Assembly: GCF_000213055.1 (NCBI RefSeq)
Contig: NZ_CM001165.1
Location: 186,001-250,000 of the forward strand
Direction of reading: 5' to 3'
Length of the DNA stretch: 64,000 bases
Source of the DNA: Streptomyces sp. Tu6071
GTDB taxonomy: Bacteria > Actinomycetota > Actinomycetes > Streptomycetales > Streptomycetaceae
Both the position numbers and the translations under genes were made by a program. Position 1 is the first letter of the stretch. Each line of letters opens with the position of its first letter. The notes beneath the pieces are model-generated. The model did no database searches and was not told where the DNA came from. It saw only the letters and a program-made list of their open reading frames with translations. Shown here piece by piece: positions 1-64,000 of this stretch.

Positions 1-128
1 AAGCCTGCTTCCCCGGCCTCCCCGTCGACGGCGTCCGCTCCCCCGCCCCGGCGGCCGGGGACCAGGCCCCCACCGGCCTCCCCCCTGCCTTCCCGCACGG
101 CCGCCCCCGGATGCCCGGAGCCCTCTGA
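1..128 (+). CDS. C-terminal end of a gene running in from the left edge (unknown)
   Basis: The reading frame beginning at base 3 stays open from the edge to a TGA at 126-128. It gives about 41 residues rich in Pro, Ala and Gly, with nearly every third codon position G or C, the local signature of a real gene. No domain is visible, so the product is unknown. A 24-base near-repeat (CCCGGATGC.., around 107-130 and 137-160) straddles the stop, which looks like local duplication. It could be a chance open frame in GC-rich DNA. Confidence 0.4.
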   Translation, partial: ACFPGLPVDGVRSPAPAAGDQAPTGLPPAFPHGRPRMPGAL

Positions 129-58627: not shown

Positions 58628-59446
58628 TCACGCCTTGCGTGCCACCGCCGCGTACGTCGAGCTGACCCGCCCGTCCTGTCCCGGCACCCGCTCGCCGAGT
58701 TCCGGGTGCCACTCCTCGGCGAGGACGACGCCGGGTCCGACCGTCTCGAAGCCGTCGAGGAAGCGGGTGAACTCTGCGCGGGTGCGCAGCGCCGCGGTGA
58801 GACCCTTCGCGCGGTAGGTGCCGCTCGCCCGTGCGACGTCCCCGGGCGCGTGGAAGTCGGCGGTGAAGTGCGACATCACGAGGTGGCTGCCGGGGGCCAG
58901 AGCGTCCTTGAGCGCGGTGACGAGTGCGTGGGCGCCGTCCTCGTCGCGGATGAAGTGGAGCAGCGCGACGAGCGAGAGGGCGACGGGCCGGGAGAGGTCG
59001 AGGGTCTTGGCGGCGAGCGCGAGGACCGCCTCGGTGTCGTGCGCGTCGACGAGGGCGAAGTCGAGCGCGCCCTCGGGGGTGCCGTGGAGGAGGGCTTCCG
59101 CGTGGGCCATGACGATCGGGTCGCGGTCGCAGTAGACGACGCGCGCCTCGGGCCGCACGCTCTGCGCGACCTGGTGCAGGTTGGGCTCGGTGGGGATGCC
59201 GGAGCCGACGTCGAGGAACTGGTCGATGCCCCGCGTGGCGAGCCAGCGCGTGGCCCGGCGCATGAAGGCGCGGTTCATCCGTGCCATGAGCGGGAGCTGG
59301 GGCTCCAGGGCGACCATCTGGCGCCCGAGCTCCTCGTCCACCGGATAGTTGTCCTTGCCTCCGAGCATCCAGTCGTACATGCGCGCGGGGTGCGGCCTGC
59401 TGGTGTCCACCCTCGCCGCCGCGCCCGCGTCCTGGGGTTCCGGCAT
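58628..59446 (-). CDS. SAM-dependent methyltransferase (DUF574 / Methyltransf_19)
   Basis: A 272-residue methyltransferase of the DUF574 family, expanded in streptomycetes. HPARMYDWMLGGKDNYPVD is the family hallmark, QFLDVGSGIPTEPNLHQ the SAM-binding glycine loop, VVYCDRDPIVMAHAEALL the second strand, and RPVALSLVALLHFI the fourth. Substrate unknown; members often lie by regulators or secondary-metabolite genes. ATG 59446 is preferred to ATG 59461 because AGGGAG is correctly spaced. Confidence 0.9.
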   Translation of the reverse strand: MPEPQDAGAAARVDTSRPHPARMYDWMLGGKDNYPVDEELGRQMVALEPQLPLMARMNRAFMRRATRWLATRGIDQFLDVGSGIPTEPNLHQVAQSVRPEARVVYCDRDPIVMAHAEALLHGTPEGALDFALVDAHDTEAVLALAAKTLDLSRPVALSLVALLHFIRDEDGAHALVTALKDALAPGSHLVMSHFTADFHAPGDVARASGTYRAKGLTAALRTRAEFTRFLDGFETVGPGVVLAEEWHPELGERVPGQDGRVSSTYAAVARKA

Positions 59447-59525
59447 CGTCAACTCCCTCATTGCCCTGCGGTGTTGCTCAAGGGGGCACGATTCTAGGCG
59501 AGTTGCGCGTGGGGCGGGCGGGCGC

Positions 59526-59556
59526 GAGGCGCCGCCCGTACTCGGGGCGGCGCCTC
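59526..59556 (-). terminator. Terminator of the alginate-lyase-family gene
   Basis: GAGGCGCCGCCC (59526-59537) pairs perfectly with GGGCGGCGCCTC (59545-59556), 20 bases past the stop of the leftward gene. Confidence 0.7.
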
Positions 59557-59575
59557 TTGTCTCGTATCCCGTACG

Positions 59576-60793
59576 TCAGTTGGGGTTGTCGCCGTGGGTC
59601 AGGGTCTCCCAGGCGACGAAGAGGTTGTTGCTGCCCGCCGGGCGCTGCTGCTCGGTGAGCCGCTGGGTGTTGGTCATGGCGATGCCGAGGCGGTTGTGCA
59701 GGGCGTTGTAGCCCATCTCGGTGACCGGCCCGAGGCCGCGGTTCACGCTGCCGCCGCACAGCCAGCTCGGCGGGGCCTCGCCCAGCTCGTACTTCGCCTG
59801 GAAGCCGAGCGCCTGCCGCAGCCGCTCGCCGACGTCCGTGCCGTAGAGGTCCGCGCCCTGGATGCGGCTGGTCTCGGCGACGTGCGAGATCGAGGAGATC
59901 CCGTACCCGGTGTGGGTGAAGTCGCGGCAGGTCTCCTGCGTGAGCCCGGTGACGAAAGTCGACTGGCCCTGCCAGTAGTTGATGATCTTCTGGCGGGTGT
60001 CGAGGTTCTGGCTCGGGACGGTCTTCGGCAGCTCGCCGTCCGAGGAGAGGTAGACGTAGGCAGCGGTCCGCGTGCGGAACTTCGCCATGGCGGTGTCGTA
60101 CGAGCTCTTGTCGTCGAGGTAGACGGAGATGCCGATCGCCGCCTCCAGGATCGTCAGCTCCCAGTTCCCGTTGGAGTTGGAGCCCTTGATGACGACGGGG
60201 AGGTAGACCTGCCGGAGCATCGTGTCGAAGCGGGCGCGCTGGGTCCAGGCGCCGGTGTAGGTGTGCTTGATCAGCTCGGCGGCCTTGGGCCAGGAGGAGC
60301 CCGCCCAGCCGGTCTGGAGCGGGGCGTTGCTGTTGGTGTGGTTCTGGATCGTCCCCGACCAGGCGTCCATGAGCTGGATCGCCTTCTGCGCGTAGCGCTC
60401 GTCGCGGGTGAGATACCAGGCGAGCGCGTCGGTGTACGCGGCTATCGCGTCCTCGCGCTCGTCGGTGCAGCCGTAGTTGGGGTTGGAGTACGAGCCGCAC
60501 TCGACCGTCGCGCGCGGCTTGGGCGTGCGGTTGAGGTCGGCGTACTTGCTCGCCATCATCTGGTCGAAGGCGCCCTTCCAGGGCTGCGCCCCGGCCTGCA
60601 CCTTGCCGCGCACGAAGTCGAGCTGGCTCTGCGAGACGGTCACGCCGGGGTGCGTGAAGGCGGCGGGCGCGGCCTCGGCCCTGCCCGCACCCGGCCGGGC
60701 GAGCAGCGCGGCGACGAGGGCGACGAGCGTCGCGGCGACGAGCAGGTGGGGGGAGGACCGGCCGCGGTGGGGGCGCCGGGAGAAAGCTTCCAT
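59576..60793 (-). CDS. Secreted alginate-lyase-family polysaccharide lyase
   Basis: A secreted protein of 405 residues. The N-terminal hydrophobic stretch LLVAATLVALVAALLA ends before GRAEAAPA, a signal peptide. The mature part is an alpha/alpha barrel of the alginate_lyase (PF05426) type: YTDALAWYLTRDERYAQKAI, TIQNHTNSNAPLQTGWAGS and NGNWELTILEAAIGI, the last corresponding to the family's Asn-Trp/His-containing helix. Members cleave uronic-acid polymers by beta-elimination; both alginate and glucuronan lyases are known, so the polymer is unresolved. Strong promoter 60852-60880 upstream; a solitary gene. Confidence 0.82.
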   Translation of the reverse strand: MEAFSRRPHRGRSSPHLLVAATLVALVAALLARPGAGRAEAAPAAFTHPGVTVSQSQLDFVRGKVQAGAQPWKGAFDQMMASKYADLNRTPKPRATVECGSYSNPNYGCTDEREDAIAAYTDALAWYLTRDERYAQKAIQLMDAWSGTIQNHTNSNAPLQTGWAGSSWPKAAELIKHTYTGAWTQRARFDTMLRQVYLPVVIKGSNSNGNWELTILEAAIGISVYLDDKSSYDTAMAKFRTRTAAYVYLSSDGELPKTVPSQNLDTRQKIINYWQGQSTFVTGLTQETCRDFTHTGYGISSISHVAETSRIQGADLYGTDVGERLRQALGFQAKYELGEAPPSWLCGGSVNRGLGPVTEMGYNALHNRLGIAMTNTQRLTEQQRPAGSNNLFVAWETLTHGDNPN

Positions 60794-60799
60794 GAGAAC

Positions 60800-60819
60800 T
60801 CATTCCCGTATGTGAATGA
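60800..60819. promoter_or_regulatory. Inverted repeat in the lyase leader
   Basis: TCATTC (60800-60805) and GAATGA (60814-60819) flank CCGTATGT, immediately upstream of the lyase start codon and overlapping its ribosome site. Either an operator or a small hairpin. Confidence 0.4.
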
Positions 60820-60851
60820 AATTCGCACGCTCGAATGCGTACTGCTGACAG

Positions 60852-60880
60852 ACCATAGGTATGCACCAATGGGGCGTCAA
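60852..60880 (-). promoter_or_regulatory. Promoter of the alginate-lyase-family gene
   Basis: On the minus strand TTGACG (60880-60875) and TATGGT (60857-60852) are separated by exactly 17 bases, a near-consensus vegetative promoter, giving a leader of about 50 bases. Confidence 0.7.
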
Positions 60881-61186
60881 GAAGCGTGCACCTCTTGAAA
60901 ACGGGGCGCTCGACGGAGCGGAAGCGCCGGCCCCTCGCGGCGCGGCCGTCCGGCCCGTCACCGCCCGGCGGTCCGGCCCGTCACCGCCGTCCTTCCCGGC
61001 ATGACGGGGGCCTGACCCCTCCGCGCGCCCGTCGGGCGCCCGTTCTACGGGTGAACGCCGCCCCGGAACCGCCCCTGGGGACCGCCCCGGCTGGCACGCT
61101 GCTTCCGATCATCCGATGAGCCTCCGGATGCCGGTCCAGCCTGCCGGTGCGCCGCGCGGGGCCCTCGGCGGTCCGGAAGGGGGGCC
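60881..61186 (+). other. Spacer before the cis-prenyltransferase gene
   Basis: About 300 GC-rich bases with no supported gene. It contains a direct repeat of CGGTCCGGCCCGTCACCGCC (near 60945-60985), but no clear promoter or operator for the prenyltransferase pair was seen. Confidence 0.4.
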
Positions 61187-61942
61187 ATGACGGTCGGGGA
61201 CGAGGACGCCGCCACGCGGACGGGGCGGGGGCCGCGCCATGTCGCGTGCGTGATGGACGGCAACGGGCGCTGGGCCGAGCGGCGCTCGCTGCCGAGGACC
61301 GCCGGGCACCGGGCCGCCGAGACGACGGTGATCGACATCATCGAGGCGGCCCGCTCGGCCGGGGTCGAGTGGCTGAGCCTGTACGCCTTCTCGACCGAGA
61401 ACTGGAGCCGCCCCAGCGCCGAGGTCGGCTATCTCATGGACCTCGTGCGGCACACCGTGCACAAGCACGCCCCGCTCCTGCACGCGCGCGGCATCCGCTG
61501 CCGTTTCCTCGGCGCCGACGACGCCCGCGTCCCGGAGGGCCTCGCCAGGGACTTCGCCGACCTCACCACCCTGACCGCCGGAAACCGCGGGATGACCCTC
61601 ACGATCGCCTTCGACCACGGCGGGCGCGGCGACATCGTCGCGGCCGCGCGCTCCCTGATCCGCGCCGGCGTGCCCGCCGAGGAGGTCACCGAGCGCAGCT
61701 TCGCCACCCACCTGCCCTTCCCCGACACCCCTGACGTGGACCTCGTGATCCGCACCTCGGGAGAGCAGCGCATCTCCAACTTCATGCTCTGGCAGGTCGC
61801 CTACGCGGAATGGGTCTTCCCCACCGTGCTGTGGCCCGACTTCCGCGCCCCGCACTTCCTGGAGTGCCTGCACCACTACCGGCACCGCGAGCGCCGCTTC
61901 GGCGGCGTACCGGCCCAGCAGAACGGAACCACCGCCCCATGA
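61187..61942 (+). CDS. uppS: cis-Prenyltransferase (isoprenyl transferase, UppS family)
   Basis: A 251-residue cis-prenyl diphosphate synthase. MDGNGRWA (23-30) holds the catalytic Asp24; LSLYAFSTENWSRP and RTSGEQRISNFMLWQ with AYAEW complete the five conserved regions. The enzyme condenses isopentenyl diphosphate onto an allylic primer, making cis-polyprenyl diphosphates. Streptomycetes usually have several copies; this one is coupled (ATGA) to a DUF2236/EF-hand protein and so may serve a specialised product rather than cell-wall undecaprenyl phosphate. AAGGGGGG precedes the ATG. Confidence 0.92.
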   Translation: MTVGDEDAATRTGRGPRHVACVMDGNGRWAERRSLPRTAGHRAAETTVIDIIEAARSAGVEWLSLYAFSTENWSRPSAEVGYLMDLVRHTVHKHAPLLHARGIRCRFLGADDARVPEGLARDFADLTTLTAGNRGMTLTIAFDHGGRGDIVAAARSLIRAGVPAEEVTERSFATHLPFPDTPDVDLVIRTSGEQRISNFMLWQVAYAEWVFPTVLWPDFRAPHFLECLHHYRHRERRFGGVPAQQNGTTAP

Positions 61943-63405
61943 CGACCACCGGTGGATTCCCCCGCTTCCGCAAGCTCTTCGACGACCCGCGCTGGGCTCC
62001 CGCGCTCGTCCGCGCCACCGTCCTGGAGGCCGCGCACCCGCAGGTCGGCGCCGCGCTCGTCGCCAACTCCACCTTCGTGACGCACCCGTGGCGCCGCCTG
62101 CGCAACACCTTCCACAGCATGCGCCGCATGAGCGACGCCGACGAGGCGGTACGGAGCAGGGAGGCCGCCCGGCTCAACCGGCTGCACGACCGCCTGAAGG
62201 GCACGGGCCCCGATCAGCGCCCGTACGACGCGATGGACCCCGCCGCGCGCGCCTGGGTCCTCGCGACCCTCTTCGAGAGCGCCGTCACGATGTACCGGCT
62301 GAGCGGGCAGCCCCTGCGGCACGAGGAGATCGAGGAGCTGTACGAGGAGACGAGGGGCTACCTGCGCGCGCTCGGGGACGAGGCCGCGCGGCTCTCGGCG
62401 ACGACGGTCGAGTTCTGGCCGTACTTCGACGCGGTGGTGGAGCGGGAGCTGGAGGACACGGAGGCGATGCGGATCATCCTCTACAAGCTCTTCGACCACC
62501 TTCCCGCGCCCGGGGTGCTGAGCGGGGTCCCCACGCTGTGGGCCACGGGCCGGGCGTTCGCCGGGCCGCTGATCGGGGCGGTCACGGTGGCGTCGCTGCC
62601 CGAGCCGTTCCGCAGGCGCGCCGGTCTCCCCGAGCTGCCGGGCGTGACGACGCTCCTGCGCGGGACGTACCTCGCCGCCGGTCTGACGCGCTTCCTGCCG
62701 GACGACTGGATCAGCGCCGAACGCGTCGTCGACCTGCTCTCGTCCACCCCCGGCGGCGACGATCCGGCGGCGCGCACCGCGGCGGCGCTGCACGAGAGGC
62801 TGCGGCGGGCCGGGGCGCTCGTCCGCCTCCTGTCGCCCCTGCCGGTGCCCGAGCCCGCCGCCCCTCCCGCGCCCGTGCACAGCGGCGCGGAGGAGTTCTT
62901 CCGCGAGGTGCTCGACCAGACAGGGGACGGATACCTCGACTGGCCGGATCTCGCCGCCATGGCCCGGGAGCTGGCGACGAGGCTGGATCTCGACGAACCG
63001 GAGGAGACCCGGCTGTACGAGGCGTTCGCGAGCTGGTGGCGGGAACTCCAGGCGGCCCTGGACACGGACGGCGACGGGCGGGTGAGCGCGCGGGAGTACG
63101 CGAGCAACGCCGCCGGGCTCGCCGGACCGGCGCTCATCCGTGTCGCGGAGGTCCTCTTCGCGGCGGCGGACGCCGACGGCAACGGGACGATCGACGCCGA
63201 GGAGTACCGCGCGCTCTTCCGCACGGCGTTCCGCCGCGAGACGGTGGGAACGGGTGGGGCGGGGAGGACGGGCGGCACGAGTGGGCCGGGGGACGCGGGC
63301 GGCGCGGACACGTACGACGGCGCCGCGTTCGTCCGCGCCTTCGTGTCGTTCATGTCCGGCCGCCCGCGCTCCTCTCCGTTCGATCCCCTGTTCCGTCAGC
63401 CCTGA
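61939..63405 (+). CDS. DUF2236 (MpaB/Lcp-like) oxygenase fused to three EF-hands
   Basis: A 488-residue two-part protein. The N-terminal 290 residues match DUF2236: TVLEAAHPQVGAALVANS, RLHDRLKG, YDAMDPAARAWVLATLFES and SLPEPFRRRAGLPELPG are the family segments. Known members include the haem latex-clearing protein Lcp and fungal MpaB, which cleave isoprenoid chains. The C-terminal third has three EF-hand loops: DQTGDGYLDWPD (from about 326), DTDGDGRVSARE (375) and DADGNGTIDAEE (411), all with calcium-binding acidic positions. A Gly/Thr-rich linker and a final helix follow. No signal peptide. Start overlaps the prenyltransferase stop (ATGA), so the two are co-translated. Confidence 0.85.
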   Translation: MTTTGGFPRFRKLFDDPRWAPALVRATVLEAAHPQVGAALVANSTFVTHPWRRLRNTFHSMRRMSDADEAVRSREAARLNRLHDRLKGTGPDQRPYDAMDPAARAWVLATLFESAVTMYRLSGQPLRHEEIEELYEETRGYLRALGDEAARLSATTVEFWPYFDAVVERELEDTEAMRIILYKLFDHLPAPGVLSGVPTLWATGRAFAGPLIGAVTVASLPEPFRRRAGLPELPGVTTLLRGTYLAAGLTRFLPDDWISAERVVDLLSSTPGGDDPAARTAAALHERLRRAGALVRLLSPLPVPEPAAPPAPVHSGAEEFFREVLDQTGDGYLDWPDLAAMARELATRLDLDEPEETRLYEAFASWWRELQAALDTDGDGRVSAREYASNAAGLAGPALIRVAEVLFAAADADGNGTIDAEEYRALFRTAFRRETVGTGGAGRTGGTSGPGDAGGADTYDGAAFVRAFVSFMSGRPRSSPFDPLFRQP

Positions 63406-63417
63406 ACGGGCCGGGGG

Positions 63418-64000
63418 TCAGGAGGCGCGGTAGGTGTACGTCGGGGTCGACTCCTGGGCCGTCTTCCCCTGGGGGAGGTAATCGAAGGAGTACGAGAGGC
63501 TGTCGCCGGCGCGGAGGCTCACGGGCAGTTCCCAGCGGCCTGCTCCGGCGTTCCAGGTCAGGAAGTAGTTCTCCTGGGCGGCCCCGTTCTTGCGGTAGTG
63601 GACGGTGACCCAGGTGGCGCCGTCGCTGCCGGGCTTGAACCAGACGGCGGGCTGGCCGCCCGCTGTCACCCCCTGCGTGAAGGCGCCGTTCCCGGGGTTC
63701 GCACCGCCCCCGTTGCCGGGATCGGTCCCGCCCCCGTTGCCCGGGTCCGTTCCGCCGCCGGTGCCCGTGCCGCCGACCCACTGGCTTCCGCGCAGTTCGG
63801 CGAGGAAGCGGTCGAGGATCACCGGGTCCGCCTGGACGCGGGCGTCGCCCCAGTAGCCGTTGCCGCAGCCGGTTCCACCGGCGTTCGCGCCGTCGGCACA
63901 CTGCCACTGGGTCTGGCTGTCCCAGTCGGTGTTGATGTAGGCGGCGGCGCGGACGACGTCGCGGTTCGCGGCGATGAAGGAGAAGTAGGGCTTGTACCAC
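63418..64000 (-). CDS. C-terminus of a secreted beta-mannanase-like enzyme with carbohydrate-binding module (partial)
   Basis: The last 194 residues of a gene entering from the right edge. The first 65 resemble the end of GH26 beta-mannanases: KPYFSFIAANRDVVRAAAYI, then NTDWDSQTQWQC and GYWGDARVQADPVILDRFL. A linker built from repeated DPGNGGG units follows. The last 95 residues form a beta-sandwich (AVWFKPGSDGATWVTVHYRK through LSYSFDYLPQGKTAQ) like glucan-binding modules of the CBM56 type. The start and catalytic Glu residues lie outside the window. Fifteen bases separate it from the convergent EF-hand gene. Confidence 0.75.
   Translation of the reverse strand, partial: WYKPYFSFIAANRDVVRAAAYINTDWDSQTQWQCADGANAGGTGCGNGYWGDARVQADPVILDRFLAELRGSQWVGGTGTGGGTDPGNGGGTDPGNGGGANPGNGAFTQGVTAGGQPAVWFKPGSDGATWVTVHYRKNGAAQENYFLTWNAGAGRWELPVSLRAGDSLSYSFDYLPQGKTAQESTPTYTYRAS

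Follow-up and report, generated by a model that had tools for sequence, protein, structure and literature searches.

The window analysed here, a stretch of 64,000 nucleotides from Streptomyces sp. Tu6071 (contig NZ_CM001165.1, positions 186,001 to 250,000 of the forward strand), harbors a gene for a cis-prenyltransferase of the UppS family, which is directly followed by a gene for a DUF2236 (MPAB_Lcp) oxygenase fused to EF-hands. The locus raises the question whether the two genes adjoin by accident or form a unit, in which one enzyme makes a cis-polyprenyl chain and the other one attacks it, as a first-pass annotation had suggested. We give a probability of roughly 0.5 to the reading that the pair is an apparently mobile and self-contained unit, which first makes an isoprenoid chain and then cleaves it oxidatively, with a domain that responds to calcium. 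The unit comprises the following features:

61175-61184, plus strand: ribosome-binding-like stretch GGAAGGGGGG in front of the uppS start codon ATG at 61187, read from the sequence
61187..61942, plus strand: UppS-family cis-prenyltransferase gene (251 amino acids; PF01255 Prenyltransf, 243 bits at a cut-off of 27)
61939..61942, plus strand: ATGA overlap of 4 bases, read directly, with the oxygenase start on the uppS stop codon
61939..63405, plus strand: DUF2236 (MPAB_Lcp) oxygenase-EF-hand fusion gene (488 amino acids)

The overlap of stop and start had already been described in the first-pass annotation and was recovered at 61939-61942. The mechanically determined open reading frame of the oxygenase begins at 61810. 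We preferred 61939, because an in-frame ATGA or GTGA overlap exists there in 107 of 114 distinct orthologous pairs (TTGA in two, other arrangements in five); these 114 remained of 121 pairs after the removal of duplicates.

Occurrence of the gene pair

The genus sample consisted of 101 Streptomyces genomes including that of Tu6071. Among the matches listed, UppS orthologues of 76-100% identity occurred in 26 of them; the next full-length UppS below this clade was 56% identical (genome G090), and a 66% fragment was found in G085. Oxygenase orthologues of 63-100% identity were present in 27 genomes, the next long match reaching 38%. Twenty-six genomes were common to both lists, which makes the pair a common one in the genus, while the odd one out (G075) contained a partial oxygenase only. 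At all 26 loci with a full-length or near-complete oxygenase, UppS adjoined in identical order. The oxygenase of G082 is broken, being split into two frames, and still adjoins UppS; G075 possesses merely a remnant (query residues 164-485) without a UppS of the clade. These decayed copies correspond to the loci L061 and L062. Another genome, G017, disclosed a 74-residue oxygenase fragment (53% identity) with a stop. The UppS fragment of G085 (query residues 118-243, 66% identity) was placed outside the clade, because it exhibits the motif NHGGR like the 56% copy of G090. No oxygenase match was detected among the genes called around it.

A second sample comprised 394 genomes drawn from the class (cut-offs of E 1e-35 for the oxygenase and E 1e-72 for UppS). 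Here the oxygenase was found in 17 genomes, UppS likewise in 17, and both in 16, namely in our strain, in 10 other Streptomyces and in five genomes of a second family. The unmatched genomes were G237, whose oxygenase belongs to a sister clade, and G465 with a UppS of 50% identity. In the five genomes of the second family the genes lie side by side, their products being 66-77% (UppS) and 46-53% (oxygenase) identical to those of the window. Among the matches listed, the oxygenase of one of these five loci (L168) is identical to that of Thermomonospora umbrina P0121, and relatives of the oxygenase as such, irrespective of their neighbourhoods, were also recorded in Actinomadura, Nonomuraea and Streptosporangium. 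A pattern search gave 207 relatives, and UppS resides directly upstream at each of the best 80, the named loci, whose titles refer to Streptomyces in 79 cases and to Actinacidiphila in one; at two of them (L126 and L143) only a part of UppS is visible at the contig end. Beyond the genus sample, UppS adjoins the oxygenase at 95 of 96 loci, the single miss belonging to the sister clade. The protein distances of both partners correlated with r = 0.84 (113 pairs), a value that is inflated by shared descent and was not used as evidence.

The pairing is conserved far beyond one strain and no accident. An accidental neighbourhood was rejected, since the pairing is constant over the genus sample, the class sample and the further loci. 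In this respect the first-pass annotation, which had made its proposal conditional on co-occurrence in other genomes, was corroborated (both genes in 26 of 101 Streptomyces and in 16 of 394 class genomes).

The two predicted enzymes

Profile score and retained catalytic motifs place the first protein in the UppS (PF01255) family. Out of 16 NCBIfam matches, only TIGR00055 (uppS, polyprenyl diphosphate synthase) exceeded its cut-off (220.6 versus 109.55 bits). The following motifs were located:

61253..61273, plus strand: MDGNGRW motif, residues 23-29, each residue in 111-112 of 114 aligned sequences
61607..61627, plus strand: AFDHGGR, residues 141-147, clade signature, six of its residues invariant in 114 sequences, the Asp kept in 113 of 114
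61751..61783, plus strand: RTSGEQRISNF motif, each residue in 111-114 of 114

We take Asp24 of MDGNGRW to be the catalytic aspartate by comparison with Asp26 of the E. coli UppS, and RTSGEQRISNF is presumably the substrate-binding motif. AFSTENW is retained as well (111-114 of 114 at each residue). Because the catalytic motifs are intact, the prenyltransferase should be active. The genome holds three UppS homologues including that of the window; the best-matching paralogue is 45% identical, and at the AFDHGGR site the paralogues read VNYGGR and VGYGGR. Short-chain cis-prenyltransferases have a bulky residue at the position of Ala67 (within AFSTENW). Thus, the alanine speaks in favour of a product of medium or long chain length, while Phe at position 142 could lead to a shorter one. 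A branched or short-chain enzyme was discarded on account of the far weaker match to cyclolavandulyl diphosphate synthase (E 4e-16 versus 4e-66) and of Ala67, which together are not proof.

The second protein combines a putative haem domain with three EF-hand loops:

61975..62664, plus strand: MPAB_Lcp_cat haem-oxygenase domain, residues 13-242 (PF09995, 150.9 bits at a cut-off of 23)
62026..62037, plus strand: E30 (113 of 114 orthologues) and H33 (114 of 114)
62095..62109, plus strand: R53-L-R-N56-T57, counterpart of R164..K167-T168 of Lcp (R53 in 114 of 114, N56 and T57 in 113 of 114)
62185..62187, plus strand: H83, proposed proximal haem ligand, counterpart of Lcp H198 (invariant in a 108-sequence alignment, among diverse members and in 114 of 114 orthologues)
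62914..62949, plus strand: EF-hand loop 1 DQTGDGYLDWPD, residues 326-337, Thr at position 3 and Asp at position 12, not fully canonical
63061..63096, plus strand: EF-hand loop 2 DTDGDGRVSARE, residues 375-386 (Pfam and 114-sequence alignment)
63169..63204, plus strand: EF-hand loop 3 DADGNGTIDAEE, residues 411-422 (Pfam and 114-sequence alignment)

The rubber oxygenase Lcp cleaves carbon-carbon double bonds (C=C), and roles at its haem site are given for R164, K167, T168 and H198 in excerpts of PMC5522427. The profile match and the set R53, T57 and H83, corresponding to Lcp R164, T168 and H198, assign the window protein to the DUF2236/MPAB_Lcp family. R53 was invariant in 33 diverse members and in the 108-sequence alignment, T57 occurred in at least 90% of the latter. 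A histidine at the haem-binding position, the absence of which the first-pass annotation had named among the points against its interpretation, is present by alignment as H83. The near-invariant Gln of the family at column 30 (at least 90% of the 33 diverse members) is replaced by Glu in the clade of the window.

Eukaryotic cis-prenyltransferases operate with a partner subunit, and the tight coupling of the two genes would also agree with a regulatory role, in which a globin-like haem domain and the EF-hands form a subunit that responds to O2 and Ca2+, binds to UppS and controls it. The globin fold of Lcp and its similarity to globin-coupled sensors, as stated in the excerpts of PMC5522427, point in the same direction. 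However, the catalytic Arg and Thr have been kept besides the His, and a pure sensor has no obvious need of counterparts of Arg164 and Thr168, which makes a merely regulatory partner decidedly unlikely compared with a cleaving oxygenase.

A crude test did not reveal an apparent signal for secretion by twin-arginine translocation (Tat); the N-terminus MTTTGGFPRFRKLFDD is devoid of a hydrophobic stretch, and the hydropathy maximum over 19 residues is 1.54 at residue 392. As no secretion signal was apparent, the substrate is expected inside the cell, unlike that of Lcp, which is Tat-secreted and degrades external rubber (excerpt of PMC6311187). The best matches of the low-confidence oxygenase model were t-anethole oxygenase (8s1j) and Lcp (5o1l, 5o1m). 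The single oxygenase domain, searched by sequence against the PDB, gave no match, and calmodulins predominated in the matches listed for searches with the alignments A1 and A2.

Four EF-hand profiles scored above their cut-offs (EF-hand_5, 45.4; EF-hand_1, 43; EF-hand_7, 44.2; EF-hand_6, 40.5 bits), the match to EF-hand_8 lay below. All three loops have Asp at position 1; at position 12, loop 1 has Asp, and the other two have Glu. This holds for 114 of 114 sequences in every case. Profiles and these acidic positions identify the region as an EF-hand domain. The three intact loops of the first-pass annotation were thus confirmed with regard to the acidic positions 1 and 12, but loop 1 is not fully canonical. 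NCBIfam matches to XopAW and LanM were dismissed as EF-hand echoes below the cut-off; XopAW is the name of a plant effector and nothing else supported it.

Surroundings and possible mobility of the pair

No gene outside the pair recurred in at least 4 of the 26 genus-sample loci (12-19 kb each) by the crude G+C-frame method used for calling genes in the flanks, which a short conserved gene could escape. The remaining recurrent queries represented another frame or strand inside the coordinates of the pair itself. A larger gene cluster was therefore rejected. Seven plasmid records matched the oxygenase at 60% identity or more. In three of these records, as annotated, uppS resides beside the oxygenase gene with a 4-base overlap, the products being termed 'polyprenyl diphosphate synthase' and 'oxygenase MpaB family protein', and transposase genes are located near one of these copies. 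Because of the plasmid carriage and the lack of a recurring flank gene, the pair looks like a self-contained two-gene cassette, and the differing flanks together with the plasmid copies suggest that it is mobile. A phage-defence system was rejected as no PADLOC family was hit at E 0.01 by either protein.

The absence of another conserved neighbour and the transposase genes beside one plasmid copy would also be compatible with a linkage without shared chemistry, for example of genes on a mobile accessory element that are held together by translational coupling. We regard this as scarcely probable, as the clade UppS never occurred without the oxygenase in the 26 Streptomyces genomes (among the matches listed) and the 16 class genomes, our strain being counted in both, and as the pairing spans two families down to an oxygenase identity of 46%. 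A turnover of lipid carriers, with undecaprenyl-type carriers being degraded by the oxygenase under Ca2+ or stress and then either replenished or supplied in a variant form by the dedicated UppS, has in its favour that the enzyme for the cell-wall carrier is itself of the UppS family. As two more UppS homologues exist in the genome, that of the window is probably dispensable for housekeeping. The patchy presence in Streptomyces and the plasmid carriage fit an accessory trait better, however, and the flank comparison yielded no neighbour gene, of whatever kind, that the loci share; carrier turnover is very unlikely.

In the window, the pair is flanked by genes outside the unit:

58628-59461: Methyltransf_19 gene (Pfam)
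59576-60793, strand opposite to the pair: alginate-lyase-like gene, upstream of the pair
63418-63999, converging on the pair from downstream: CBM56-containing gene, open at the window end

Carbohydrate-active genes (alginate-lyase-like and CBM56) are thus situated on either side of the pair in the region 58628-63999; at other loci they are not shared. Upstream of uppS (61092-61119) the stretch TGGCACGCTGCTTCCGATCATCCGATGA is common, or nearly so, to the window and the close relative L074. Spotted by eye and not general among the loci, it is a possible promoter or operator. A motif search in the upstream regions of 108 loci revealed nothing clear (commonest 8-mer in 31 loci, in 23 in shuffles), and the loose pattern GAAC-15..18-TC was seen in 24 loci versus 8.

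A proposed pathway and known systems

In the preferred cleavage reading, the dedicated UppS-type enzyme would first extend an allylic diphosphate by cis-addition of isopentenyl diphosphate units, yielding a polyprenyl diphosphate. This step is supported by the family and the intact motifs, the length of the product being presumed. The DUF2236 domain, probably co-translated and acting as a cytosolic b-haem enzyme, would then attack a C=C bond of the chain with O2 and release a shortened isoprenoid aldehyde or ketone, in analogy to Lcp, MpaB and Nro1 on their alkenes. Finally, the C-terminal EF-hand domain may bind Ca2+ and switch or position the oxygenase. The cassette contains no third gene; a phosphatase, if required, would be provided by the host.

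Several points weigh against this reading. Asn56 (113 of 114) takes the place of the distal ligand Lys167 of Lcp, a residue present in only 59% of Lcps according to the excerpts of PMC5522427. The Lcp profile alignment falls below zero bits over the R164/T168 stretch, and for this reason the mapping of residues to Lcp is based on motif spacing and invariance. The sub-threshold Lcp alignment would put the base Glu148 at V36, where no acid exists; the nearby E30 and H33 are candidates for its role. The oxygenase model is weak, with a mean predicted local distance difference test score (pLDDT) of 66.9 and a predicted template modelling score (pTM) of 0.50. We connect 8s1j with haem by inference from a title cited in PMC12724181, and a Pseudomonas t-anethole oxygenase is termed a flavoprotein in the abstract of PMC3774712. 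As DUF2236 members also cleave non-isoprenoids, such as nitrile rubber (excerpts of PMC12724181), the family alone leaves the substrate unfixed. At the loci of the sister clade no UppS gene was seen beside the oxygenase. Substrate, product, haem, O2 chemistry and Ca2+ response are all inferred.

The Asn in place of the distal Lys and the exchange of Gln for Glu at residue 30 suggest a distal side unlike that of Lcp and, together with the same pairing evidence, would suit an oxygenation without cleavage, by which the DUF2236 domain would introduce a hydroxyl or epoxide group into the cis-prenyl chain, or into a metabolite bearing it, and give an oxidised polyprenol or lipid carrier. Lcp (PMC5522427) as well as Nro1, MpaB and the oxygenases of Purwani et al. 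2024 (PMC12724181) all cleave C=C bonds according to the excerpts, and we consider this alternative unlikely. With regard to making and then cleaving a chain, the first-pass annotation is partly supported, namely by the conserved unit, the residues of the haem set and the best matches of the model to C=C-cleaving oxygenases. A portable calcium-gated 'make-and-cut' pathway, by which an apo-polyprenoid (signal, pigment precursor or volatile) is released upon a Ca2+ signal, is proposed tentatively, with less confidence than the cleavage itself.

To our knowledge, direct control of a bacterial metabolic enzyme by an EF-hand is unusual, and the pair offers a candidate. The pairing also suggests that a bacterial MPAB_Lcp oxygenase may have a natural substrate which the cell makes itself, the bacterial Lcp and Nro1 being degradative in the excerpted sources. 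If true, the 'make-and-cut' pathway would be the biosynthetic counterpart, inside the cell, of rubber degradation and would constitute a separate class of natural products encoded by two genes. For heterologous expression no more than these two genes are needed, and the question is therefore cheap to settle.

The open-access literature searched contained no description of the UppS/DUF2236-EF-hand pair or its product, in agreement with the first-pass annotation, to which no pathway with such a layout was known; DUF2236 and EF-hand never appeared together. Judged by title and abstract, articles with DUF2236 and prenyl dealt with the structure of Lcp and with a comparison of mycobacterial genomes, and those with MpaB and diphosphate synthase were plant or fungal studies. 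The MpaB of PMC11002830 is an unrelated name.

The sister clade of DUF2236-EF-hand proteins (L035-L037, L067, L169 and the S. goshikiensis plasmid L218) exhibits the same domain order at 33-38% identity; L035-L037 possess four EF-like loops and Asp at the position of H33. Its genes lie at 9419-10816 in L067 and at 5947-7356 in L218, and the clade also occurs on S. goshikiensis plasmids. Locus L070 (10742-12649, 8751-9578, 16341-17393) harbors a squalene/phytoene-synthase-UppS fusion, a plain DUF2236 gene approximately 1.1 kb off and a polyprenyl synthetase nearby, possibly another isoprenoid-DUF2236 link. In L069 (7122-8057, 8140-9057) a squalene/phytoene synthase-like gene is divergent from a UppS 56% identical to that of the window, without an oxygenase among the genes called. 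Adjoining pairs of DUF2236 matches were noticed at G087:C19:143463-144999, G089:C1:5148420-5149834 and G090:C1:1674851-1676256.

Compared with UppS enzymes of known structure (7cpn, 7jli, 1jp3), the window enzyme shares the intact catalytic motifs (E 3.6e-66 to 7cpn) but forms a separate clade with the AFDHGGR signature and a shortened loop near residue 158. MpaB of the fungal mycophenolic acid pathway, after which the Pfam family is named, has a trans-prenyl substrate and is not known to carry EF-hands; by the Pfam title it is bound to the endoplasmic reticulum, unlike the window oxygenase. It cleaves a prenyl side chain oxidatively at a terminal double bond (excerpt of PMC12724181). From Lcp (LcpK30, 5o1l/5o1m) the window oxygenase differs by the missing apparent signal, the EF-hands, Asn instead of Lys167 and the adjoining cis-prenyltransferase. 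The t-anethole oxygenase 8s1j of Stenotrophomonas maltophilia has, by its name, a phenylpropene substrate, and its chain of 302 residues is too short for an EF-hand domain. The EF-hand calcium-binding protein of Streptomyces coelicolor (3aka/3akb; 166 residues) stands alone, whereas the EF-hands of the window are fused to the oxygenase. Each domain is known; what the papers searched do not describe is a dedicated cis-prenyltransferase that is paired one to one, with overlapping genes, with a probable haem C=C-oxygenase bearing EF-hands.
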